Origin: Myxococcales bacterium
GTDB taxonomy: Bacteria; Myxococcota; UBA727; VGSZ01
Assembly (NCBI GenBank): GCA_023248635.1
Contig: JAHFED010000027.1
Location: 3,319 to 67,318 of the forward strand
Length of the DNA: 64,000 nt
Reading direction: 5' to 3'
The position numbers and the translations under genes were made by a program. Numbering within the stretch: the stretch's first letter is position 1; each line of letters starts with the position of its first letter. The notes below the pieces were generated by a model. It was given only the letters and a program-made list of their open reading frames with translations. It ran no database searches and was not told the DNA's origin. Of this stretch, positions 1 through 34,657 are shown piece by piece.

Positions 1-1543
1 CAGCTTCTGGGTCTGGCTGCTCGACGGCTGGTGCTGCGGCAGGGAAACCCGGCGAAGGAGGCAACCCAAACGCCGACGGCGGTGCCGCCTTCTTCAGGAA
101 CGTCGACAGCCCGTCACTCGCCGCATCGCGCTCGTTGTCGTAGTGCCCCATCAGCACGGCGTAGCGGGCCAGCGAGATGGCGCCGAGTTTCAGATCGAGC
201 TCAAGGCGGCGCTGCTTGGAGTCCATCTCCTCGTAGTCGGGGGGCACGCCGAAGATCACGCGCGGAACCACGTCGCCGAACTTAGGAGCGTAGGACGGCG
301 GGGCGAACTGGTCCAAGACCTCGAGCAGGATTGGCAGTAGGCGCTGCTCCTCGAAGCGTCGGAAGATGGGGCGGAGCTCACGCACCCGCTTGTCGTGCGG
401 CAGGTTGGCGATAGCCCGCGAGACACCGCTGACGGCGACGGTCGGCGTCGTCGCGTAGGCATCCGGGTTGGCGGCGCGCGACACGGCAATCTCACGCGTC
501 GACTGCGACCGCGAGGCGCGCATGTCCTCGAGCATGGGATTGAACCCGACGGACGTGATCGTCTCGCCGGGCGCAACCTTGATCCAGCGGTCGGGCCCCA
601 TCGGCAGATGGTCCGCCTCGTTCATGGTGCCGCTGTAGACGCCCTGCCCGTGGCCCTGCAGATTGACGACGTGGTGCTCGTTGCTGCGGCTGACGTTGAG
701 CTCGTCGACCTGTGCGATGACGTCGCGCTCAGGCGCTGGCCAGAAACCGCCGTCGGCTTGCTCGACGCGCAGGAAGCAGATCGGCAGGAGTTCGCCCGGA
801 TACTCGACAGGAAGCGAGGGGTGTTTGCCGTCTGTCGAGATGCGAACATGGCGCCACTTGCCCCACGCCTTGACGCTGCCGTCAGGGTTGGCGTCGTGCG
901 GCCGCGACCAGATCCACCAGGTCTCGACGCCCTGTGCGGCGCCGGCGGGAGTCTGCCGCAGACCACAGACCATGATCGCGCGGTCATCGTTGGGTGCGCT
1001 TGGGTGGCAGAGCACGATGACGTCGCTGGGCCAGTACATGTGCGCGACGGGCTTGCCTTCGTCAGTGTCGTCGACCTTGCGCCAACACACCTCGACAGCG
1101 GCGGCCTTCACGCCGGTCAGCGCGCGTCGCTCGAGCTCCGGCATGAGAGCCGCAAGCCCGATGTCCTCGATGGCGCGCGCGAAAGCCATGGCGCGGGTGT
1201 CCTCATCTGGGATGTCTGATTTGTCGCGCATCTCGAGGAAGCGCTCCGCGTCGACGACGTAGACGCCAGCATCGGTGCGCGCGAAAAACGCGAGCCAGTT
1301 GATGGGGCTGATGGGCATGGGCCCGGCGTTCGGAAACCGCTGGGCCAGCGCCGCAGCCACGATGGCCCGCTGATCGCCGCGGTAGCGCTGGGCCATCCCG
1401 GCGACGTCGACGTCGTAGTCGACTGGCTTGGCGCGTTTGCCTGCGTCGAGGACGGTGCGCAGTTCGAGCGCGGTGCTGGCCTGCGCCCCAAGCGCGATGA
1501 TGGCCGCGTGCAATCGCTGCTGTGATTGGTCGGGGAAGAGCAT
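1..1543 (-). CDS. Phage portal protein (partial, runs off left edge)
   Basis: The frame is open from an ATG at 1543 to the window edge, about 514 codons, with no stop seen in the parts read. The protein begins MLFPDQSQQRLHAAI and includes segments such as LPVEYPGELLPICFL and ARYAVLMGHYDNERDAASDG, followed by a Pro/Ala-rich tail near the edge. The portal forms the dodecameric ring at the capsid vertex through which DNA is packaged. The assignment rests on position directly after the large terminase, on size and on general sequence character; no diagnostic motif was checked. There is no Shine-Dalgarno before the ATG; a 21-bp element shared with the terminase start lies 8 nt upstream. It could instead be another head-assembly protein. 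Confidence 0.65.
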   Translation of the reverse strand, partial: MLFPDQSQQRLHAAIIALGAQASTALELRTVLDAGKRAKPVDYDVDVAGMAQRYRGDQRAIVAAALAQRFPNAGPMPISPINWLAFFARTDAGVYVVDAERFLEMRDKSDIPDEDTRAMAFARAIEDIGLAALMPELERRALTGVKAAAVEVCWRKVDDTDEGKPVAHMYWPSDVIVLCHPSAPNDDRAIMVCGLRQTPAGAAQGVETWWIWSRPHDANPDGSVKAWGKWRHVRISTDGKHPSLPVEYPGELLPICFLRVEQADGGFWPAPERDVIAQVDELNVSRSNEHHVVNLQGHGQGVYSGTMNEADHLPMGPDRWIKVAPGETITSVGFNPMLEDMRASRSQSTREIAVSRAANPDAYATTPTVAVSGVSRAIANLPHDKRVRELRPIFRRFEEQRLLPILLEVLDQFAPPSYAPKFGDVVPRVIFGVPPDYEEMDSKQRRLELDLKLGAISLARYAVLMGHYDNERDAASDGLSTFLKKAAPPSAFGLPPSPGFPAAAPAVEQPDPEA

Positions 1544-1551
1544 GCCAAAGC

Positions 1552-1572
1552 GTCAGCCCGCGATGGCGTGAC
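1552..1572 (-). promoter_or_regulatory. Conserved 21-bp dyad 8 nt upstream of the portal start
   Basis: Read leftward this is GTCACGCCAT, then CGCG, then GGCTGAC-like sequence, with GTCA/TGAC at its ends. A near-identical copy at 2880-2900 lies exactly 8 nt upstream of the large-terminase start. Neither gene has a recognisable Shine-Dalgarno. The shared element may be an operator or a translation-control site; its function is unknown. Confidence 0.4.
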
Positions 1573-1581
1573 AACGTGCGG

Positions 1582-2871
1582 TCAGAGCGCTCGAGCGAAC
1601 GGGATGATCTGCGCCTGCTGCTGGCGCCATACCGGGAACTGCCAGAAGCAGCCGTAGCCCACGGCGTCCGCGGCGGCATCGAGGCCCCCGGCCTTATCGG
1701 GCTGGCCGTTCACGTAGGCCTGCCGCTCGAACATCATGCAGGTCTGCGGAGCCCCCTGGGGGTCGATGGTCAGGCGTCGGTCCCGCAGCATGATCTGCAC
1801 GGTGTTCACCCGATCGTCGATGAGCGGATTCGCCAGGCCGTGGCGGGGCTCAAAGCCGGCTTGCTGCAGCAGTGCGACGTGCGTCAACGGCGTCACCGAC
1901 GTGCGCTGTGTGCCGCTGGCGTCGCAGAAGACCTTGATTCGCATCGCGCGGACGTCGTCAGCGGTGATGTGACGGCGACGAGTGCGCGTCAGATAGGCCG
2001 CGAGATAGCGCTTGATCTCCTCGGCCTGGCGCGCGGTGTCAGTGTTGGTGCCGACGAATTCGCCGACGATGTGGGCGCTCTGCCGGGCGGGCTCCACCTC
2101 GGCCACGACCCAATGCATTTTGCCGACGTTGAAGTCTGCCCACACCTGGAGTTCGGCGACGCCGACGCAAGGGTTGCGACCGTGCACGTCGCGAGAGAAA
2201 CGGCTGTAGACGCGGCCCCCTTTGGCGCGGCGCTGGCCCTCGAGCTTCTCTCCGGCCTCGTCGGCGTCGAGTCGGCCCTCCATGTCCGCGACATAGTCGG
2301 CGCGAAGCATGGTGTTTGCCCGTGTGCGCACAACCCATACGCGCGTGGACGGCTTCGGCGCCGCGAGCACCAGGTCATAGCAAGGGCCGTAGCCCTCGGG
2401 CGTCCCCGTCAGGACGATCTGCTGGCAGGGCCCGACGGAGACGCGCGCCATGGCGACCTGCAAGGCCTCACGCTCGCAGAGCTCCCACTCGTCGACGAGG
2501 AGGCCGCCAACGGTGAGGCCCTCGAGCGAGCGCGGGTTGTCGGCGGAGCGACAGAGGACGTCGAAGGTTCTGCCGCGCCCGATCGTGAGGACGCGATCAC
2601 TCTTGTGGTACCGCCAGGGCAGCCCCCACACATCAAGCATGCGCATCGCTGAGGCCACGAAGACGTCGACGACCATGCGGTAGGTCGGCTCGATGGCGAG
2701 GATCGGGGCGCCCTCACTGCGAAAGCCCATGTCAATGACAGCGGCGACACCTGTGACGGTTTTGCCCGAGCGGTAGCCGCCCTGCATGACGCGAATCTTG
2801 GAGGTACGATCCGCGACGAGCTCAAGCTGATGGGGAAGGAGCTCCGCGTTGCCGCGGCGGACGTCGACCAT
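1582..2871 (-). CDS. Phage terminase large subunit (packaging ATPase/nuclease)
   Basis: This 429-residue protein is the DNA-packaging motor that cuts concatemeric phage DNA and translocates it into the prohead through the portal. A Walker A motif GGYRSGKT lies at residues 31-38 and a Walker B segment GGLLVDEWE at about 122-130. LTGTPEG at about 155 fits the coupling region. The C-terminal half has Asp-rich segments (ADFNVGKMHW and FCDASG) that fit the RNase H-like nuclease domain. The start at ATG 2871 follows the conserved 21-bp element rather than a clear Shine-Dalgarno. The gene lies 38 bp before the portal and 189 bp after the small subunit, the usual phage order. Confidence 0.9.
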   Translation of the reverse strand: MVDVRRGNAELLPHQLELVADRTSKIRVMQGGYRSGKTVTGVAAVIDMGFRSEGAPILAIEPTYRMVVDVFVASAMRMLDVWGLPWRYHKSDRVLTIGRGRTFDVLCRSADNPRSLEGLTVGGLLVDEWELCEREALQVAMARVSVGPCQQIVLTGTPEGYGPCYDLVLAAPKPSTRVWVVRTRANTMLRADYVADMEGRLDADEAGEKLEGQRRAKGGRVYSRFSRDVHGRNPCVGVAELQVWADFNVGKMHWVVAEVEPARQSAHIVGEFVGTNTDTARQAEEIKRYLAAYLTRTRRRHITADDVRAMRIKVFCDASGTQRTSVTPLTHVALLQQAGFEPRHGLANPLIDDRVNTVQIMLRDRRLTIDPQGAPQTCMMFERQAYVNGQPDKAGGLDAAADAVGYGCFWQFPVWRQQQAQIIPFARAL

Positions 2872-2879
2872 GCAACACG

Positions 2880-2900
2880 GTCAGCCGCGCATGGCGTGAC
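2880..2900 (-). promoter_or_regulatory. Conserved 21-bp dyad 8 nt upstream of the large-terminase start
   Basis: Second copy of the element at 1552-1572. The outer 17 positions match; the central four bases are GCGC here and CGCG there. It lies in the 189-bp gap between the terminase subunit genes, which also holds a run of seven T, one C and seven A, possibly part of an internal promoter for the packaging genes. Confidence 0.4.
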
Positions 2901-3060
2901 GACGGTAAAGCCGCCTGAACTCGCTGAATCAGTGTATTTTTTTGAAAAAAATGCCGCCGTCAATGTGACGAAGAAGTTTTCGGGTTGAAAACTGAGCCCG
3001 GCGCGCGAGGTTGGGGGGGCCCGGGGGTTAAAACGTCACACGAAGACCCCCTATCCACAG

Positions 3061-3507
3061 TCACGACACAACAATAGGCACAAAAAAGGCCAACGTGTCG
3101 ACGCTCCCGTCGTCGGGCGCCGCGGGCTTGTCACCCCACCGCGCAGGGTCCAGCACGGCCAGCACCTTGGCGCACGCGGTCACCGTGGCGAGGTCGCCCT
3201 CTTGAGCGGCCTGCACCGCACACTGCTCGAGGTCGACGACCCTCTCGGCATCGCTCTTCACTGGGGCCTCGACGCGGGCCTTGCCGGGTGCCCCATACAC
3301 GAGGTCGCACATCCGCTCGGCCGCTCGCAGCTGCAGCGTGTCGCCGTCCTGTTCCCCGCTCGACACGTCGGCGATGTACTGGGCCGCATCCGGAGCCCCA
3401 TCGACGATGCAGGCAGGCAGAGGGGGTCTCCCTCGGCCTCCCGTGTTGGCCTTGTTCCCCTTGCCGAAGCGACCGTTGTTACCGCGACCATTTGCTGCTG
3501 GCTTCAT
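3061..3507 (-). CDS. Putative phage terminase small subunit
   Basis: The protein has about 148 residues and starts MKPAANGRGNNGRFGKGNKA, a Gly/Asn/Lys-rich N-terminus common in phage and mobile-element proteins (NGRFGKGN... GRGRPP), followed by a mostly helical body. The assignment as the DNA-recognition subunit of terminase rests on its position just upstream of the large subunit and on size. The start may be ATG 3507 or the adjacent GTG 3510, which overlaps the preceding stop as GTGA; AAGGAAGG lies 5-8 nt upstream and suits either. Confidence 0.5.
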   Translation of the reverse strand: MKPAANGRGNNGRFGKGNKANTGGRGRPPLPACIVDGAPDAAQYIADVSSGEQDGDTLQLRAAERMCDLVYGAPGKARVEAPVKSDAERVVDLEQCAVQAAQEGDLATVTACAKVLAVLDPARWGDKPAAPDDGSVDTLAFFVPIVVS

Positions 3508-4136
3508 CACGCCACCTTCCTTCGACGCCTACGTTGGCGCCCTCTCGACGTGAGCACACTTGCCGCTCGAGACACCTCAGCCCCCACGATCTCGTGGTAG
3601 CCCTCGCGCCACTCCTTGGGCACGAGGCGGGGCACCTCGCTGAGCAGGTGGGCGACGACGCCGACAAGGGGGCCGTCACCTGGGGCTGGGTACAGAGGCT
3701 GACTGCAGGCAGCAGCGATTGCCGGTGGGCTCCTGCCGGCAACCAGCATCGCGATGGCGAGCATGCGCCACTCGCGGTCCTTCCGAAATGCAGGCTGACA
3801 CTGGGTGCACCACCTCCCCGAGGCCGGTCGCCCACAGTTTTCGCACGCCCCTGGAGCGGGCAGAAAGCCCCCTGGTGCGGACATATTTGCCCGCACCTCG
3901 ACGACAAAAAGGCGCCTCCCAACGTGCCGCTCGGGCCCTTCGCGACGAAACAGGCCCCAACGCTCTCCGTCCGCGATCACCCTGCGCGTCGAGCGATCGT
4001 CGTCATGCCCCAGCGCAGCTTGCAACGCGCGCATGCCGCCGATGACTTCGCCACTCTCGTCAGCCAGCTCGAAAGCAACGCGCACAGCCATCTGCACGGC
4101 ATGCGGGACATCGCGGGCAAATCGGCGCGCGCTCAT
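3507..4136 (-). CDS. Phage Zn-finger protein, possibly replication or DNA-binding
   Basis: This is a protein of about 209 residues of unrecognised family. The ATG at 4136 was chosen because it overlaps the preceding stop as ATGA; sequence further upstream in this frame is Arg/Ser-rich and looks like the wrong frame. Residues 1-80 contain a helical segment (RRFARDVPHAVQMAVRVAFE) and GLFRREGPERHVGRRLFVVE, resembling a winged-helix replication-initiator type domain. A four-cysteine Zn-binding motif, CENCGRPASGRWCTQC, follows at about residue 105. The C-terminus is strongly basic (RGRQRRRRRKVA). It lies between the resolvase-side genes and the terminase small subunit. Confidence 0.6.
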   Translation of the reverse strand: MSARRFARDVPHAVQMAVRVAFELADESGEVIGGMRALQAALGHDDDRSTRRVIADGERWGLFRREGPERHVGRRLFVVEVRANMSAPGGFLPAPGACENCGRPASGRWCTQCQPAFRKDREWRMLAIAMLVAGRSPPAIAAACSQPLYPAPGDGPLVGVVAHLLSEVPRLVPKEWREGYHEIVGAEVSRAASVLTSRGRQRRRRRKVA

Positions 4137-6337: not shown

Positions 6338-6657
6338 TTGCCACCGGTGGTCGGACGATCGTCCTCGCCGAAGCCGCTCAGCTCCGACTCAAGCAGGAAC
6401 AGCAGCGAGCACGCGGCGTGAGCCAGATGCGGGAGGCCGCTCTCGGGGTCGAGCGTCTCGCCGCGGTGCCATGCGAACAGGTGTCGCAACGTCGCGCCGT
6501 AGTAGCGGGTGCGCTTGTCGACCTTGCGCCATCCGTTCGGCGCGTACTTGCGGGCCCCGAACGCCAGCACCTGGGCGATGGCCTCGAGCGCAACGGTCGG
6601 CAGCAGGTGAGCGGCCGGCTTGTCCTGATCGTTCTTCACGAACTCGCGGGCGGTCAT
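6334..6657 (-). CDS. Putative dATP/dGTP diphosphohydrolase (DUF5664-like)
   Basis: The 107-residue protein starts MTAREFVKNDQDKPAAHLLP and carries the segment LAFGARKYAPNGWRKV, then TLRHLFAWHRGETLDPESG and HLAHAACSLLFLLESE. This matches the small all-alpha phage family annotated as dATP/dGTP diphosphohydrolase, N-terminal (DUF5664). The conserved Glu/Asp residues (E67, D70, E72) and His residues would form the metal site. Such enzymes may alter the purine deoxynucleotide pool, and some relatives occur in phages with modified adenine. No PurZ-like partner is visible. Coupled by ATGA on both sides. Confidence 0.65.
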   Translation of the reverse strand: MTAREFVKNDQDKPAAHLLPTVALEAIAQVLAFGARKYAPNGWRKVDKRTRYYGATLRHLFAWHRGETLDPESGLPHLAHAACSLLFLLESELSGFGEDDRPTTGGK

Positions 6658-6845
6658 CGGCCACCCCAGCGCTTGCCTGGCTGCTTCTGCCGTCGCGTGT
6701 TCTTCGGCAGCCTCGACCGCTCCAGTGCCTCGAGGGTCGCCACACGCAGCTTGTCCGCTGTCGTGACCGTCTCCATCACCGCTTCGACAGCTGGCGTGTT
6801 CTCAGGAAGGAGGAGACCTCCTTCTTTCTTCTCTTCTTCCCTCAT
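6654..6845 (-). CDS. Small phage hypothetical protein (63 aa)
   Basis: An acidic/basic helical protein (MREEEKKEGGLLLPENTPAV, then ATLEALERSRLPKNTRRQKQ) with no recognised family. It is linked by 4-bp overlaps to the D5-family helicase upstream and the nucleotide-hydrolase-like gene downstream, which supports it being translated. Function unknown. Confidence 0.5.
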   Translation of the reverse strand: MREEEKKEGGLLLPENTPAVEAVMETVTTADKLRVATLEALERSRLPKNTRRQKQPGKRWGGR

Positions 6846-8443
6846 CGATCCCCCGAGAAATCATCAGGATCAGGAGTGCCCAGCTCGAAGCGGGCAAAAG
6901 AGGGAGGCAGGGATACAGAGGGAGACCCCGTAAAGTTGCTTCCACAATTTCCCTCTAAGAGAGGAAACTTTGCAGGGACTCCCTGAGCCTCCCTGCCTCC
7001 CTGTCTCTCTGTTTCATGCAGCAGCCCGAGACCCCGAAACAGCATGCGGCCGTCGCTCTTCTTGGAGGACCAGCCCTTTTGCTCGAGCGACTCAGCCCAC
7101 CCGTTGATCGATTGTGGTCGTCCGCCGCGGGCCTCGGTCCAGATGCGGTAGGCGTCGTAGAGGACCTTCGACTGGACCCGTGCGCTCTCGGCGACGACGC
7201 AGCACTCCTCGAGGAACGCGGCGATGTTGTCGCTCTTGCTGCGGTACTCCGCTGTTGCCTCTTCGATCTTGCCGGCGGTCCCAAGGCCTTCGCGCTGCCA
7301 GGCCAAACACCCGTCAACGAGCCACCGCAGGATGCCAGGGAGCTCGAGCTTGAGCTTCTCTCGGAGGGTGACGTCCTCGCGGCCCAGGAAGGACACCTCG
7401 AAGGGCACCAGGCGCAAGCGGGCCCACACTGCGGGGTCGCCGCCGCGGATGACCGGCTTGTAGTTGGTCTGCAGCGCGAGTTTGTGGGTGGGCTCGAAGC
7501 TGAAGAAGTCCTTGTGCATGAAGCGGGCGCGGATCGAGTCCTGGCCTGTCAGGTTCTTGATCACGTCCTCGTCGAGCCGCTTCTGCTGCTTGGACTCGCT
7601 GGCGACAGCGAAGCGGAGCTGGTGCAGCTGCGCCTTCTCGGTCGGGTGTGCCTCGCCGTTCTTCTCCATGAGGAGGTCGGCCGGGATGGGGCAGGCATAG
7701 GGACCAAGGATGGCCAGCAGCGTTTCGACGAGGGTGCCTTTGCCGTTGCGCGACGTGGCGCCCCAGAAGATCGGGAGGACGTGCTCGCGGATGACACCGG
7801 TGAGGCAGTAGCCGAAGAAGCGCTGCAGGAAGGTGCGGACCTCAACGTCCGGCATGATCTCCGCAAGGAACTTCTCGAAGCGCGGGGCCACGGCGTCGTC
7901 GATGAATGGGACCGGTGCGATCTTGGTCAGCAGGTCGCTGCGGCGGTGTGACTGGAGCAGGCCTGTGCGCAGGTCGAGGGTGCCGTTGGAGCAGCAGAAC
8001 AGCCACGGATCCTTGTCGAGGTCGGCGGCGACGACGGTGATCGTGGGCTCGGCTGCCGCGAGCTTCAGCATTGCCGCCCGAGAGCTCGCGCTCTCACTTT
8101 TGTCCGCATGGCGCGCCAGCAGGTCCCGCTCGTGCTTGGATGCGGCGCCGACGGCGTCGACGAGGTAGCTGCGAGCGACGTCCTTGGTGGACAGCAAAGC
8201 TTGACCGTCGTCGTCGGCCCAGCGCCGGTCATCCCAGCGCAACCAGGCGCTGCGCTCCTTGTGGAAACGGAAGCCGCTGCCGCCGTGGTGGTTGACCCAA
8301 CGCTCTGCATTGCCGCTGTCGGTGAGGCGGGGGCCATCACCGAAAACGTCACGGCCGCCGCGGCGCATGCTGTCGATGTTGTCGAAGGCTGCGCCCAAGG
8401 GGATCAGTGTTTCCTCTGGCTCCATGTCGACGACGTCACTCAT
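6842..8443 (-). CDS. P4/D5-family phage replicative helicase
   Basis: 533 residues. The N-terminal third matches the D5 N-terminal domain, with SNGTLDLRTG at about residues 152-161. A superfamily-3 helicase core follows: Walker A GATSRNGKGT at 228-237, then a Lys/Glu-rich region and ALQTNYKPVI (the sensor region) at about 315. The last 150 residues include a winged-helix-like segment and an Asp/Pro-rich tail. The TOPRIM or AEP primase domain that many relatives carry is not seen, so primase activity is doubtful or supplied elsewhere. The protein should unwind phage DNA at initiation. ATG 8443 overlaps the upstream stop as ATGA. Confidence 0.88.
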   Translation of the reverse strand: MSDVVDMEPEETLIPLGAAFDNIDSMRRGGRDVFGDGPRLTDSGNAERWVNHHGGSGFRFHKERSAWLRWDDRRWADDDGQALLSTKDVARSYLVDAVGAASKHERDLLARHADKSESASSRAAMLKLAAAEPTITVVAADLDKDPWLFCCSNGTLDLRTGLLQSHRRSDLLTKIAPVPFIDDAVAPRFEKFLAEIMPDVEVRTFLQRFFGYCLTGVIREHVLPIFWGATSRNGKGTLVETLLAILGPYACPIPADLLMEKNGEAHPTEKAQLHQLRFAVASESKQQKRLDEDVIKNLTGQDSIRARFMHKDFFSFEPTHKLALQTNYKPVIRGGDPAVWARLRLVPFEVSFLGREDVTLREKLKLELPGILRWLVDGCLAWQREGLGTAGKIEEATAEYRSKSDNIAAFLEECCVVAESARVQSKVLYDAYRIWTEARGGRPQSINGWAESLEQKGWSSKKSDGRMLFRGLGLLHETERQGGREAQGVPAKFPLLEGNCGSNFTGSPSVSLPPSFARFELGTPDPDDFSGDR

Positions 8444-29516: not shown

Positions 29517-30185
29517 GTGACCTGGCCCGCGGACCTCGTCGATGCCCTCTTGCCCGCGCGCTGCCTGGCGTGCGGTGAATCATCGTCGACGTCGACGAAC
29601 CCGCGTCGCTCCTTTTGCGCGACCTGCGACGAACAACTGGAGCCGTCGTCGACGTCGCCGTCTGCCTTTCTCTATGTCGGACCTCTCGCCACGGTCATCC
29701 GCCGCGCGAAGTACGGGCGCGACGTCGCCGTGGCCCGCGGCTTGGCGCGCTGGTGGCATCAGCGGATCGTCGTCGACGCGACGGCCTCTCCTGCTGCGGT
29801 CGTCGCTGACGCTGTGACCTTCGTGCCCGCGCATTGGACCCGCCGCTTGCGACGTGGCTTCGATCTGCCGGCCCTGCTGGCGTCGTCGTTGGCCTTGCCG
29901 TCTGTGCCGCTGGTCGATCTCCTGGTCGCCCGCCGCCGCGATCCTCGTTTGGCCGAAGCCGCGAGCAAAGAAGAGCGTGCGTCGATCGTCGCTGGACGCT
30001 TCGAGCTGCGCGCGCCCGAGACCATCGCGGCCTTGGCGGAGAAGCGCGTCTTCGTCGTCGACGACGTCCGTACCACCGGCGCGACGCTCAACGAGGCCTG
30101 TCGCGTGCTCGAACGAGGCGGCGTGATCCCCGTTCCCATGCCCCTGGCGATCACGCCCCTCGTCAACGCGCCCCTCAAGGAATGA
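29517..30185 (+). CDS. ComF-family phosphoribosyltransferase
   Basis: 222 residues. The N-terminal Zn-ribbon (LLPARCLACG and FCATCDEQL) and the C-terminal phosphoribosyltransferase signature VFVVDDVRTTGATLNEACRV define ComF, with RRLRRGFDLPALLASSLA in between. In naturally competent bacteria ComF acts in DNA uptake; elsewhere the role is unclear. The start is a GTG at 29517. The 3' end overlaps the convergent vWA gene by 11 bp. Confidence 0.88.
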   Translation: MTWPADLVDALLPARCLACGESSSTSTNPRRSFCATCDEQLEPSSTSPSAFLYVGPLATVIRRAKYGRDVAVARGLARWWHQRIVVDATASPAAVVADAVTFVPAHWTRRLRRGFDLPALLASSLALPSVPLVDLLVARRRDPRLAEAASKEERASIVAGRFELRAPETIAALAEKRVFVVDDVRTTGATLNEACRVLERGGVIPVPMPLAITPLVNAPLKE

Positions 30186-30969
30186 AGAAGCCCGCGTTGG
30201 GTCCGGGTTGGATGCGACCCTGGCTGGCGCGGATGGCCGACTTGCTGACCATGGCAAAGGCAGCCCGCAACGCCGTCGTCGTCGTGTCCTTTTGCACCAA
30301 GATGGAGCCGTCGTTGAAGCCCATGGCCTTGGCTACCTTGGTGAAGTCCACGTCTTTGCCGACGCCGACGAAGCCCAGGTGGAACTGCTCGCTCTTGAGC
30401 AGATCTTCCGAGAGCTTCTTGCAGACCCGCGCCGGACGCTTGCTGCCGCAGTCTTCGCCATCGGTGATGACGACGATGATCGAGCGCACCGGTGTGCCGG
30501 CGTCGCGCAAGGTCTGGGCGTAGGCGACGTTGGCGCCGGCGGCGTCGCAGTAGGTGTCGTAGAGGTGGGTGCTGCCAGCGGGTCGGTAGTTTTTGTCGTC
30601 GAGCCGCAGCGCATCGTCGACGGGGATGTAGCTGTGCAGCACCGTGGCGTCGCCGGCGAAGGTCCACAGTGCCGAGAGCACGGCGTCTTTCTCTTTGCTG
30701 CCAGCGAAGGCATCGAGCAGCAGGTTCTGGCCGAGGATCACCGATTTCGTGAGCCGGGCCTCGGAGATCGAGCTGCTGCGATCGATGAGCACGGTGACCA
30801 GGGTGACCTCGCTGGCCTGGATGTCGTCGACGTGGCGGCCATTGGCCCCGGCAATCAGCATGGGTCCCAGATCGCCGGCGAGCAGGGTCTGCGACTGGGC
30901 GCTGAGGGTGCCGCTAAGGGCCGCGCGCGCGAAGAGATTCTGCACGGTGGGAGCGGTGAGCGTGGGCAT
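30175..30969 (-). CDS. vWA-domain protein (TerY-like)
   Basis: 264 residues, with no signal peptide, so cytoplasmic. The vWA domain starts near residue 55 with the MIDAS motif LIDRSSSISE (D63, S65, S67), and continues with ALWTFAGDA, GSTHLYDTYC (Thr of MIDAS) and IIVVITDGEDCGSK. TerY-type vWA proteins act with a PP2C phosphatase and a kinase in TerY-P modules. Here those partners lie in the same operon upstream, with the cysteine hydrolase 42 bp before it. AAAGGA precedes ATG 30969. Confidence 0.85.
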   Translation of the reverse strand: MPTLTAPTVQNLFARAALSGTLSAQSQTLLAGDLGPMLIAGANGRHVDDIQASEVTLVTVLIDRSSSISEARLTKSVILGQNLLLDAFAGSKEKDAVLSALWTFAGDATVLHSYIPVDDALRLDDKNYRPAGSTHLYDTYCDAAGANVAYAQTLRDAGTPVRSIIVVITDGEDCGSKRPARVCKKLSEDLLKSEQFHLGFVGVGKDVDFTKVAKAMGFNDGSILVQKDTTTTALRAAFAMVSKSAIRASQGRIQPGPNAGFFIP

Positions 30970-31011
30970 GGGCGTGTCCTTTGTTCGTGGTGGCGATGGT
31001 TCGAGGCGAGC

Positions 31012-31977
31012 TCAGATGGCGTCGTTGGTGGTGACGACGTGCATGCCGATCTTCTTGAAGTGGGCGATGCCCTCGTCGGCGAGGCGGGGAAAGTCGAGGG
31101 TCGGCGGCAGCGGTGAGATGGGCGGCGCCGGCACCGGGCTCATGCAGTCCTCGAGGATGTAGATCTTGTCGACCAACGAGGGGTCGGTCTTCATGATGTG
31201 CTCTTCGATGTCCTTCAACGTTGACAGCACGCAGTGCGACTTCGCCTGACCAAAGACGTAGACGCGATCGTAGGAGGCCAGCATGTGGAAGAACGCAGCG
31301 TTGAAGGTGCCGACGGCAGCGCCTCCGAGCTCCTTCACCTCGGGTGAGAGCACCGAGTAGTTCTCGGTCATGGCGTGGGTGCCCTTGGTCTCGAAGTGGG
31401 TCTGGCTCTTGCGCACCAAGGCGTGAAAGAGCGCGCATTCCATCAACGCCGGCACCAGCGCGTGGCTCAGGCCGCCCAGCAAGGTGTGGTAGGGCCAGAT
31501 CGTCAACACATATTTGCCAGACGATTCGAGTTTTCTGGTGTATTCGAGACATTCGCGAGGATGGGCGATGGGAGTCCACTTTCCGCTGCGAACGTCTTCG
31601 TAAAAGACCGGCGTCAACGGAGCGGGGTGATTGCCTTTCTCATCGACCCAGAACGCGGGGTGAAAGATCTGGAACGTGCGGTGTGTATCCAATGAAAAGC
31701 ACATGCCCGTGATGCGGTCCATGTGGCGGTAGAGCCAGTCGATGGTGCGGCGGGTGTCGTCGATGGCGCCGGGAACGAAGAGCGAAGCCCCCGGCGTGCA
31801 AAAGCCGACCTGGCAATCGATGCCGAAGGCCGCGATGCGCAGGGTGTCCTTCGACGACGGCGCGATGCCGAACTTCTCCCGATAGGCGCGCGCCTCATCG
31901 GCGACGACGGCGGCACGTTCGATCCACAGTTGGTCGATGGTGGTCGGGTCGTAAAACGCGGGGCGGGGCAGAGTCAT
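31012..31977 (-). CDS. Nicotinamidase/isochorismatase-like cysteine hydrolase
   Basis: 321 residues, longer than simple nicotinamidases (about 210). The fold is shown by RIAAFGIDCQVGFCTPGASL (catalytic Asp 54), GMCFSLDTHRTFQIFHPAFW (D97, H99 and H106 like the metal site of nicotinamidases) and VYVFGQAKSHCVLSTLKDIE (nucleophile Cys 249). The substrate may be nicotinamide or another amide; the metal-site pattern favours nicotinamide. ATG 31977 overlaps the kinase stop as ATGA and has AGGAG upstream, so it is translationally coupled to the signalling module. Confidence 0.8.
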   Translation of the reverse strand: MTLPRPAFYDPTTIDQLWIERAAVVADEARAYREKFGIAPSSKDTLRIAAFGIDCQVGFCTPGASLFVPGAIDDTRRTIDWLYRHMDRITGMCFSLDTHRTFQIFHPAFWVDEKGNHPAPLTPVFYEDVRSGKWTPIAHPRECLEYTRKLESSGKYVLTIWPYHTLLGGLSHALVPALMECALFHALVRKSQTHFETKGTHAMTENYSVLSPEVKELGGAAVGTFNAAFFHMLASYDRVYVFGQAKSHCVLSTLKDIEEHIMKTDPSLVDKIYILEDCMSPVPAPPISPLPPTLDFPRLADEGIAHFKKIGMHVVTTNDAI

Positions 31978-33830
31978 GGCGTGCTCCTGTTCGGTGTGGT
32001 GGGCGCGCTCGTCGCGGCTCGACGACGGAGCAGGTGGATGGCCGCGTCGGAGACGACGAAGATGTCGCCGCCGGAGCCGCGGAGAAGATCGACGCTGTCG
32101 TCGACGCCGTGGGGAATGACGCTGGCTGCCGTGTCTGGAAAACGCGCGCGCTCGCTGAAGTCTTTGGCGTCGACCAGGAGCAGCCCCGTCGCCGACGTCG
32201 ACAACAGGTGCGCGCCGCTCAAGATCTTGCCGCGGATGTTGCCGAGGACGGGCTGGTCGTCGGGCCGGCCCTCGAGATGGGCGAGCACTCCCTTGGCGCG
32301 TGAGAGCAGCGTCAGCCGATGCAGACGCACGCCTTGGTGATCGAGGGCGATGCCGACCAGCACGCGGTCGCCGTCGTTGACGACGTGGAGATCGACGATG
32401 CGACCGGGCATCGCCGGCAGGGCGTGATCGACGGGCGCGTGCCCTGGACGACACCACAGCAGGCGCGCGACGTTGCCCGCGCGCCACAAGGCCACACAGC
32501 CGTCGTCGACGGGAAAGAGCCAGGTGCGACCCGTCAGCGCCTTGCCGACGACGACGCCACTTTCGTGGTGGAGGATGGTGTCGCCGTGCAAGCGGAAGAG
32601 GCCAGCAGCAGACGCGGCCCAAGCAACCGCGCCCAACACGGTCCCGGTCGAGGTGCGTTCGACGACGCTGCCGTTGGCGTCGAGGCAGACCAGCTCGCAG
32701 TGGTTGTCGTTGGGCGGGGCGGCGATCCAGGTCAACCGGCCGGCAAAACCGAAGGACAACCCAAAGTGGTGGCCCTGCAGGACGACGTCGCCGTTTTCCC
32801 TCACCACTTTTGCAGCGTCACCGGCCCCGATCTCGACGAGGAAACGCAAGACGCCGCCTTCGCTCACTGCGGCGTTTACGGTGCCAGCGCGGGTCATTTG
32901 CTCGAAGGAAACGCTGCCGTGCACACAGACTGCGGGCACGGCGATCTTCACCCGGCAGGCCGGACAGGATCGTTGGGCGTGCTCGATTCCGCAGGCGCAG
33001 CGCACGAATTTGACGTCAAGGAGCTGGGGATCGAGCGCTCCGCGCGTGCCGTCGTCGAAGCAGCTGGCGAGATCAGCGCGCAGCGCGTCGGGCAGTGCGT
33101 CGGTGCGCAGGGCCATGCGAGGCAGAACGACGTCGGCGCGCAGGGCGCTGTGTCGCGCTTCGGCGCGCCTCAAGAGCGTAGGCAATTTCGAATGGGTGCC
33201 GCCGTAGGGGTGCACGCAGCACAGCGACTGAAAGAGCAACACCCGCAGCGCGTAGTGGTCGCTGCCCACCGAGAAGCAAGGGGCGTTGGTGAGGTTCACG
33301 CCGTACAAGAGGGGATCGAGGAAACGCTCGTGAGCGACGGGGCAGGGCAAGGCACCGATCTGCATCGAGTCGGCGTCGATGAAGAAGGGCAGGCCAGCAC
33401 CGCCGTCGGCGAGGATGATGTTGCCGTCGTTGAGATCGCCCACGACGACCGAGCGCGCGTGCAAGGCAGCCAGGGACTCGAGCAACTGCCGGAAGATCGC
33501 GAGCACGCGATTGGCGTTCACCGCCTGGGCGCGCAGCTGGGGACGCTGAAGGCGCGCGATGTCGATGGCGCCAACAATGCGGCGCATGCGGTAGCCGACG
33601 ACGTTGCCCTTGTCGTCAAGCGCGAGAGCTTGCGGGGTGATGAAGGCCGCCGGCAACCCCGTTGGAAACGCGCAGAGCTTTCGTCGGCGCAGGGCCACCA
33701 GCGGGGCAGGAGCACCGTCGTGAAAGACTTTGACGACGTCGTTTTGGCCGCAGGCGTAGACCCGCGCTTCGCCGCCTTCGCCGACGAGATCCCTGTCGTG
33801 GAGCACAAAGGCTTGGCCGTCGAGATTCAC
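31974..33830 (-). CDS. Atypical protein kinase with Zn-ribbon and C-terminal beta-propeller-like region
   Basis: About 618 residues from a GTG at 33830 overlapping the phosphatase stop (GTGA); the frame remains open upstream but reads as Arg-rich shadow. The kinase domain has a Gly loop GEGGEARVY at 17-25, Lys 34 in VVKVFHDG, a catalytic loop VGDLNDGN at 130-137 (Asp 132, Asn 137) and DADS at 152-155 in place of DFG. These are features of the kinases found in TerY-P modules. A Zn-ribbon follows (C278, C280, C289, C292). The C-terminal 300 residues repeat short strand blocks like a propeller. All catalytic residues appear present. Confidence 0.75.
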   Translation of the reverse strand: MNLDGQAFVLHDRDLVGEGGEARVYACGQNDVVKVFHDGAPAPLVALRRRKLCAFPTGLPAAFITPQALALDDKGNVVGYRMRRIVGAIDIARLQRPQLRAQAVNANRVLAIFRQLLESLAALHARSVVVGDLNDGNIILADGGAGLPFFIDADSMQIGALPCPVAHERFLDPLLYGVNLTNAPCFSVGSDHYALRVLLFQSLCCVHPYGGTHSKLPTLLRRAEARHSALRADVVLPRMALRTDALPDALRADLASCFDDGTRGALDPQLLDVKFVRCACGIEHAQRSCPACRVKIAVPAVCVHGSVSFEQMTRAGTVNAAVSEGGVLRFLVEIGAGDAAKVVRENGDVVLQGHHFGLSFGFAGRLTWIAAPPNDNHCELVCLDANGSVVERTSTGTVLGAVAWAASAAGLFRLHGDTILHHESGVVVGKALTGRTWLFPVDDGCVALWRAGNVARLLWCRPGHAPVDHALPAMPGRIVDLHVVNDGDRVLVGIALDHQGVRLHRLTLLSRAKGVLAHLEGRPDDQPVLGNIRGKILSGAHLLSTSATGLLLVDAKDFSERARFPDTAASVIPHGVDDSVDLLRGSGGDIFVVSDAAIHLLRRRAATSAPTTPNRSTP

Positions 33831-34657
33831 GTGCACGACATCCCTCCGCCATCGAGCTCGCCCAGCACGGTCCCACTGTGCTGATCGGGTTGGGCTGGAC
33901 CGCGCCGACGCAAGACGACGACGGTGCAGTCGTCTTCGGGGGCCTGGGGCCCGAGTGCTGCGATGTGTTTGGTCGCGAGGCTCGGGTTCAGCACGAAGCG
34001 CTCGTCTTGCTCGAAGAGCGCCAGGGCGCCGCAGTGATCCTCCGGCAGCGTCGTCAAAGCTGCGAGCTCCAGGGCGCCGTCGGTGGCGATGGTGATGGAG
34101 CGCAGCGACGATGCCGCTCCGCTCGCGTGCACGCGCAAGCTGGCGTGGTGATCGAGCCCATTGACCAGGCGATAGGCCGGACAATCCGGCGCGCCGTCGG
34201 TGGGTGCAGGCACGGGGATGAAGCGCCCGTTCACCCGCACCAGACCGTCGCCGACGCCGAAGACGCAGTAGCGCTCGGGCGCGATCACAGCGACCTGCAC
34301 CGTGAAGAGCAAACACGAGGCGATGACAGCCGTGACGTCGTCGTCGTTGACGCTGCAGCGCTGGGCGGTCTCTTTGAGCATGTCGACCAGGGCAGCGATC
34401 GAGGCGGCACCGATGTCTTCGACGGCGGAGCCATTTCTCAAGCGGCGAGCGAGGTCGGCGGCGAGGAAGCGAGCGCCCAGGCCCGCGCCCACCTCCGAGG
34501 ACTCGCCACCAGAGCAGCCGTCACAGACGACGGCCACCGCGTAGCCCCCACCCAGCCGCAGCGCGCAGGCGTCTTGGCTCCCCCGGCGCGCGCGGTGGTG
34601 GGAGCGGCCGACCGTCGAAGCGATCACGGAGTCCCAAGATGAAGCGATAAGAGTCAT
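33827..34657 (-). CDS. PP2C-type protein phosphatase
   Basis: 276 residues. The N-terminus STVGRSHHRARRGSQDACAL matches the G.SH...G..CQDA signature of cytoplasmic PP2C proteins linked to TerY-like modules. The metal-binding VVCDGCSGG has Asp 46, ATDGAL lies in the middle, and EDDCTVVVLRR ends the domain. It should remove phosphate from targets of the adjacent kinase. It is the first gene of the operon. ATG 34657 lies only 6 nt after a good -10 box (34664-34669), so the transcript may be leaderless. Confidence 0.85.
   Translation of the reverse strand: MTLIASSWDSVIASTVGRSHHRARRGSQDACALRLGGGYAVAVVCDGCSGGESSEVGAGLGARFLAADLARRLRNGSAVEDIGAASIAALVDMLKETAQRCSVNDDDVTAVIASCLLFTVQVAVIAPERYCVFGVGDGLVRVNGRFIPVPAPTDGAPDCPAYRLVNGLDHHASLRVHASGAASSLRSITIATDGALELAALTTLPEDHCGALALFEQDERFVLNPSLATKHIAALGPQAPEDDCTVVVLRRRGPAQPDQHSGTVLGELDGGGMSCT

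Follow-up and report, generated by a model that had tools for sequence, protein, structure and literature searches.

To our knowledge, TerY-P triads are widespread and their targets are mostly unknown, and the locus described here raises the question of whether an enzyme encoded inside such a triad could be one of these targets. As defined in the literature, the triad comprises a TerY-like vWA protein, a PP2C phosphatase and a Ser/Thr kinase with a C-terminal zinc ribbon; its function as a phosphorylation-dependent switch is a published hypothesis, and it pairs with many other systems, including restriction systems (PMC11090510). The locus lies in a stretch of 64,000 nucleotides (hereafter, the window) from a 6.5-Mb draft assembly of a Myxococcales bacterium. 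The answer that we favour, with a probability of about 60%, is that it encodes a TerY-P-type phosphorylation switch with a large-form nicotinamidase as its dedicated metabolic partner.

The four genes are tightly packed on the minus strand, spanning positions 34657 to 30175 of the window in the order PP2C, kinase, hydrolase, vWA. Specifically, the first gene of the operon (33827–34657, minus strand) encodes a PP2C-type Ser/Thr protein phosphatase of 276 aa and overlaps by 4 bp (GTGA) the second one (31974–33830, minus strand), which has a GTG start and encodes an atypical Ser/Thr kinase of 618 aa, made up of a kinase domain, a four-Cys ribbon and an all-beta C-terminal domain. The kinase gene overlaps by 4 bp (ATGA) the gene of the 321-aa protein P0003 (31012–31977, minus strand), identified as a large-type nicotinamidase-like cysteine hydrolase by its family profile, AF2 model, Foldseek matches and conserved residues. 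Following a gap of 42 bp, the last gene (30175–30969, minus strand) encodes a TerY-like vWA protein of 264 aa with a complete MIDAS. These coordinates, strands, overlaps and gap, first reported by a reading of the sequence alone (the sequence-only reading), were all exact on re-check, and a comparison of the junctions showed similar spacing in the cassettes of relatives.

The third-position GC content of 0.82–0.87 identifies all four genes as coding. The GC content of the cassette as a whole is 0.66, close to the 0.67 of the window, and therefore gives no compositional sign of recent transfer. A Rosetta-stone search for fusion ORFs among hydrolase, vWA, PP2C and kinase found none. On the opposite strand, a gene recognised by eye as encoding a ComF-like phosphoribosyltransferase (29517–30185, plus strand) is convergent with the vWA gene, and the 3' ends of the two overlap by 11 bp.

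As a control locus for the TerY-P assignment we used the ter region of plasmid R478, which was searched with the family profiles. The kinase profile found its counterpart at 24.6 bits, the PP2C profile at 52 bits and the vWA profile two proteins at 40–49 bits, while nothing in the R478 ter region matched the hydrolase profile. Since the profiles match all three R478 ter partners, the triad in the window is of the TerY-P type, and the assignment proposed by the sequence-only reading is borne out. The features expected of TerY-P are present in the window, namely a MIDAS-containing vWA protein, a PP2C phosphatase and a kinase with a four-Cys ribbon, in a single same-strand operon. The likeness to the TerY-P modules of R478 and CoCoNuT extends from the three matching families to the complete set of MIDAS, kinase and PP2C residues and to the VSxSxxxxS tail of the vWA protein, and the vWA-PP2C-kinase order of R478 is also found in phage cassettes. 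The window operon differs from these modules in being devoid of Ter genes and in having a nicotinamidase gene inside.

With regard to the single components, the PP2C protein matches Pfam PP2C_2 (5.2e-13), and its residues D46, G47, D137, D193, D242 and D243 are 100% conserved among ~100 relatives. The kinase gives weak matches as a single sequence (LanL kinase region, 3e-7; Pfam Pkinase, 0.016), and its residues K34, D132, N137 and D152 are 97–100% conserved among about 98 relatives. The AF2 model of the kinase reaches a pLDDT of 92.4, with values mostly above 90 in the C-terminal domain, and a Foldseek search with this model returned protein kinases, the top matches listed being to the kinase domain only. 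The C-terminal domain, which AF2 secondary structure places at residues ~300–605 (32016–32933, minus strand), represents a further difference from TerY-P, since it adds ~300 all-beta residues; judging by the strand pattern of the model, it may be propeller-like. The zinc-ribbon-like motif C278-C280-C289-C292, read directly in the sequence (32955–32999, minus strand), is shared by the window kinase and 27 of 61 aligned kinases and is therefore not a constant of the cassette; its absence from most phage kinases likewise sets these versions apart from TerY-P. A PADLOC search of the operon matched the kinase alone, weakly and over the catalytic loop, to PD-T4-6/MkoA; phage genomes also carry the cassette.

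The vWA protein, taken as a single sequence, matches PF00092 at 6.8e-4, just under the cut-off, and the MIDAS residues D63-S65-S67/T134/D170 are 94–100% conserved in 112 vWA relatives. The family alignments, with their conserved catalytic and MIDAS residues, confirm what had been proposed from the sequence for both the kinase and the vWA protein. The C-terminal SxSx4S motif of the latter (S242, S244 and S249; 30223–30246, minus strand) is 99–100% conserved in 110 vWA relatives and provides candidate phosphorylation sites. The same tail is found in the R478 ter vWA proteins, so that the motif carries nothing specific to the hydrolase, and the phosphosite, if real, would be a general TerY feature. 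Second vWA matches on haloarchaeal and Variovorax plasmids were considered as further triads and rejected, as they are not triads.

P0003 alone has no match in Pfam, NCBIfam, PADLOC or the PDB in single-sequence searches. As it passes no curated family model by itself, we filed it as a divergent large form and not as PncA; 7 of 20 of its relatives match PF00857, with values up to 1.6e-6. When the family profile was compared with the PDB, the matches were mainly nicotinamidases, with yeast Pnc1 as the best (2.6e-14) and M. tuberculosis PncA at 4.6e-11. In addition, the AlphaFold model (pLDDT 96.8) has nicotinamidases as its first 13 Foldseek PDB matches, and in both the profile and the Foldseek comparisons the active site and fold are closer to those of nicotinamidases than to those of other amidases.

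The catalytic triad (D54, 99%; K198, 100%; C249, 100%) and the metal ligands D97, H99 and H164 (WPxH motif; all 100%) are conserved in about 186 relatives. The active site proposed by the sequence-only reading was right as to D54, D97, H99 and C249; it also included H106, which is conserved in only 89% of the relatives, and it missed the catalytic K198 and the invariant H164. Like PncA and Pnc1, the hydrolase has an Asp-Lys-Cys triad, a D-x-H metal site, the WPxH motif and the common fold (TM up to 0.79 by target length); unlike these enzymes, it is ~100 residues longer, with an N-terminal extension and inserts, and as a single sequence it falls below Pfam and NCBIfam detection. Profile, fold, active site and neighbourhood strongly support nicotinamidase as its predicted activity, in line with the type of enzyme initially suggested.

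The four-gene set was found in Myxococcota, cyanobacteria, Chloroflexi, CPR bacteria and IMG/VR contigs, with Nodosilinea nodulosa PCC 7104, Pseudanabaena sp. FACHB-1998, Labilithrix, Chloroflexi MAGs and CPR MAGs among its carriers. Two genomes of the same genus as the source (G001 and G002) yielded no hydrolase and no vWA, as would be expected if the association were due to chance or were an assembly artefact of one genome. Such an origin is nevertheless highly improbable: the order is repeated across many families and phyla, isolate genomes and huge-phage records included, and the recurrence of the gene set, order included, in many genomes excludes chance.

Linkage was assessed at loci found by the hydrolase alone, by looking for kinase, PP2C and vWA genes within 9 kb and on the same strand. 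All three triad genes were present at 19 of 80 genome loci and at 66 of 80 IMG/VR loci. The bacterial loci show the order PP2C-kinase-hydrolase-vWA, and the viral ones mostly hydrolase-vWA-PP2C-kinase (50 loci), with the bacterial order in 14. The sequence-only reading had named in advance, as the test of its proposal, the recurrence of the hydrolase between kinase and vWA genes in unrelated genomes; this arrangement was indeed recovered, and in huge phages the hydrolase gene adjoins the vWA gene. Across 97 related genomes, 35 of 35 strong vWA matches map within about 200 bp of the hydrolase gene. The hydrolase stands without the triad at 55 of 80 genome loci, and as many lineages have it in this form, the enzyme can do without the switch. 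In a FastTree tree of 186 hydrolases we counted at least about 9–13 changes, in either direction, between cassette and non-cassette states.

These linkage data bear on a second explanation, by which the hydrolase would be an NAD-salvage nicotinamidase and the triad, simply co-transcribed with it, would have a role elsewhere, such as that of a general stress sensor detecting or reporting NAD status. Such independence would agree with the many genomes in which NAPRT or other salvage genes, and no triad, accompany the hydrolase, and with the many other systems that the triad partners (PMC11090510). It accords poorly with the lack of any strong vWA-family match away from the hydrolase in the 97 related genomes and with the survival of the four-gene set through a change of gene order, and we consider it rather unlikely.

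A tie to NAD metabolism, suspected from the sequence, receives strong contextual support from the NrtR, NAPRT, NadE, NadD, NADK and PRPP synthetase genes that neighbour the hydrolase in relatives. Specifically, a triad-free copy in Myxococcaceae, 60% identical, shares a two-gene operon with a nicotinate-phosphoribosyltransferase-like gene. Triad-free hydrolases elsewhere adjoin true NAPRT, or a NadD/NAD-kinase fusion together with NAPRT and NadE, or are accompanied by NrtR, NadE, PRPP synthetase and NAPRT. In an Anaerolineales MAG the hydrolase gene is followed by an AAA_28 gene (NadR-like by eye) and then by an NMN_transporter (PnuC) gene; a third gene there was taken by eye for NAPRT, but Pfam matches QRPTase_N only. 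As for the cassettes themselves, a NAD-salvage gene is found near 21 of 27 bacterial ones and a NrtR relative in 16 (in the fetched flanks, some records being duplicates). One locus (L041) reads NAPRT-PRPP synthetase-PncA-(other)-PP2C-kinase-hydrolase-vWA-NrtR, in another (L043) a NAPRT-like gene overlaps the PP2C gene, and in a third (L146) NadE directly precedes PP2C. The proximity of NrtR-family repressors to many cassettes recalls the NrtR-controlled NAD salvage regulons, from which the cassette differs in suggesting a second, post-translational layer of control.

Two of the neighbourhoods contain unusual genes. At L056, the gene at 6576–7949 (minus strand) encodes NadD and NAD kinase as fused domains, both recognised by NCBIfam, and adjoins NAPRT, NadE and the hydrolase. 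At L059, the reading frame at 7686–8324 (plus strand) joins, without a frame change, the C-terminal part of NAPRT to the C-terminal half of the hydrolase; with both neighbours intact in L052, this looks like a fusion by deletion (or by an assembly error).

The long hydrolase tends to take the place of ordinary PncA, and vice versa. Among the 97 related genomes, NAPRT is present in 42 of 42 with the hydrolase versus 23 of 55 without it. The 65 NAPRT-positive genomes comprise 37 with the hydrolase only, 17 with PncA only, 5 with both and 6 with neither. Exclusion between the two enzymes in this set has a Fisher p of 7e-7, of 1e-4 with strict calls and of 0.018 at genus level, kinship being ignored; the strict calls drop three PncA calls that are weak matches, counted otherwise as they adjoin a NAPRT gene. 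Over all genomes, the exclusion is not significant (Fisher p 0.079). Replacement of PncA is also seen within families, in genus g47 of family f18 and in genome G078 of family f13.

The source genome itself has an ordinary PncA-like gene on contig C35 and NAPRT on contig C9, both away from the window, and our searches found no NAD-salvage gene, NrtR included, in the window. The hydrolase may thus be a second nicotinamidase here, or one with a shifted substrate. Considering also the same-genus genomes devoid of hydrolase and vWA, it appears to be accessory in this organism and possibly a conditional second nicotinamidase.

The coexistence with ordinary PncA, observed in the source genome and four others, would equally suit a hydrolase that acts not on free nicotinamide but on a different amide or on an NAD-derived immune signal, making the module a defence or counter-defence effector. 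TerY-P modules do travel with restriction systems (PMC11090510), and counter-defence would benefit phage carriers, NAD pathways of phages being known (PMC12774641; PMC7824862). We regard this reading as distinctly unlikely in view of the nicotinamidase-type site and fold, the salvage-operon setting, the replacement of PncA and the lack of a PADLOC match for the hydrolase.

Returning to the reading of a nicotinamidase under a dedicated switch, the viral carriers provide a further context. NadE is present in 28 of 40 viral records and within 10 kb of the hydrolase in 16 (combined p 1.6e-8, kinship ignored). As a crude control, tblastn detected NadE in 27 of 50,697 phage records, with a method and a size distribution that differ from those of the viral set. 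A Gp23-like capsid match was obtained in 11 of 40 viral records, one of them weak, and a terminase in 5 of the 16 records checked; LR756511 and LR756500 have both. Viral contigs without capsid or terminase genes could be misfiled bacterial DNA. The hydrolase-vWA-PP2C-kinase cassettes of the huge-phage and viral loci (L036–L039 and L140–L219) are often accompanied by NadE and sometimes by a NAPRT-like gene and NrtR, and from their gene content these sets are predicted to perform deamidating NAD salvage.

Phage-encoded NAD supply is known from the NAMPT-adenylyltransferase of jumbo phages and from NARP1 (PMC7824862, section 3.4.8; PMC12774641). The cassettes resemble these synthesis and reconstitution systems in that NAD supply is encoded by the phage, and differ in that the deamidating route (nicotinamidase, NAPRT-like protein, NadE) comes together with a kinase/phosphatase/vWA triad. 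The jumbo-phage survey and the viral NAD survey make no mention of nicotinamidase or TerY (PMC7824862; PMC12774641), and for gut phages nicotinamidase and phosphatase appear in a list, not linked to each other (PMC10607447). Our literature search found nothing joining nicotinamidase to TerY-P; the 2012 founding TerY-P paper was outside its reach, and priority is uncertain. The recurrence in distant bacteria and giant phages suggests a shared, apparently unreported way to control NAD supply. More tentatively, and at clearly less than even odds, the dedicated nicotinamidase-vWA-PP2C-kinase switch might be ancient and have passed between bacteria and huge phages; in the latter, it would tune NAD supply during infection and maybe counter NAD-depleting immunity.

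In the mechanism that we propose, the hydrolase would form nicotinate from nicotinamide and so open the deamidating NAD salvage route (followed by NAPRT, NadD and NadE), and the kinase and the PP2C phosphatase would determine whether a partner protein is phosphorylated, most likely the vWA protein at its invariant SxSx4S tail. The vWA protein may bind the nicotinamidase via its own metal site and thereby switch its activity, assembly or stability, a contact suggested by the near-constant adjacency of the two genes. The signal would perhaps be read by the C-terminal domain of the kinase. We infer that the triad exerts control, by phosphorylation, over an output that is the deamidation of nicotinamide.

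A constant, named metabolic partner makes the question of TerY-P targets a simple enzyme assay, carried out with and without kinase, phosphatase and vWA protein. Two further results matter for NAD management by cells and phages in stress and in NAD-depleting immunity: a family of large predicted nicotinamidases that is widespread and poorly annotated, and, in huge phages, a gene set predicted to perform deamidating NAD salvage.

Finally, some loci are worth recording in their own right. On contig C35 of the source genome (L002), the PncA-like gene (1492–2061, plus strand) is followed by a TROVE/Ro60 gene (2141–3535, plus strand) with a vWA domain (Pfam, 2.8e-42), making another nicotinamidase beside a vWA protein. 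A distant relative of the hydrolase, encoded on the large plasmid of Vibrio vulnificus FORC_036 (L035), adjoins an RNA ligase gene; it lacks the triad, and a TerD-family gene lies about 4 kb away. On the Variovorax sp. SRS16 megaplasmid (L034, 629655–650296), hydrolase and vWA genes lie in a 20-kb stretch that is phage-like in flavour, with genes for NAD kinase, nucleoside deoxyribosyltransferase, two NUDIX proteins, a macro-domain protein, AlkB and RecX as neighbours, and several other Variovorax plasmids also give hydrolase matches.
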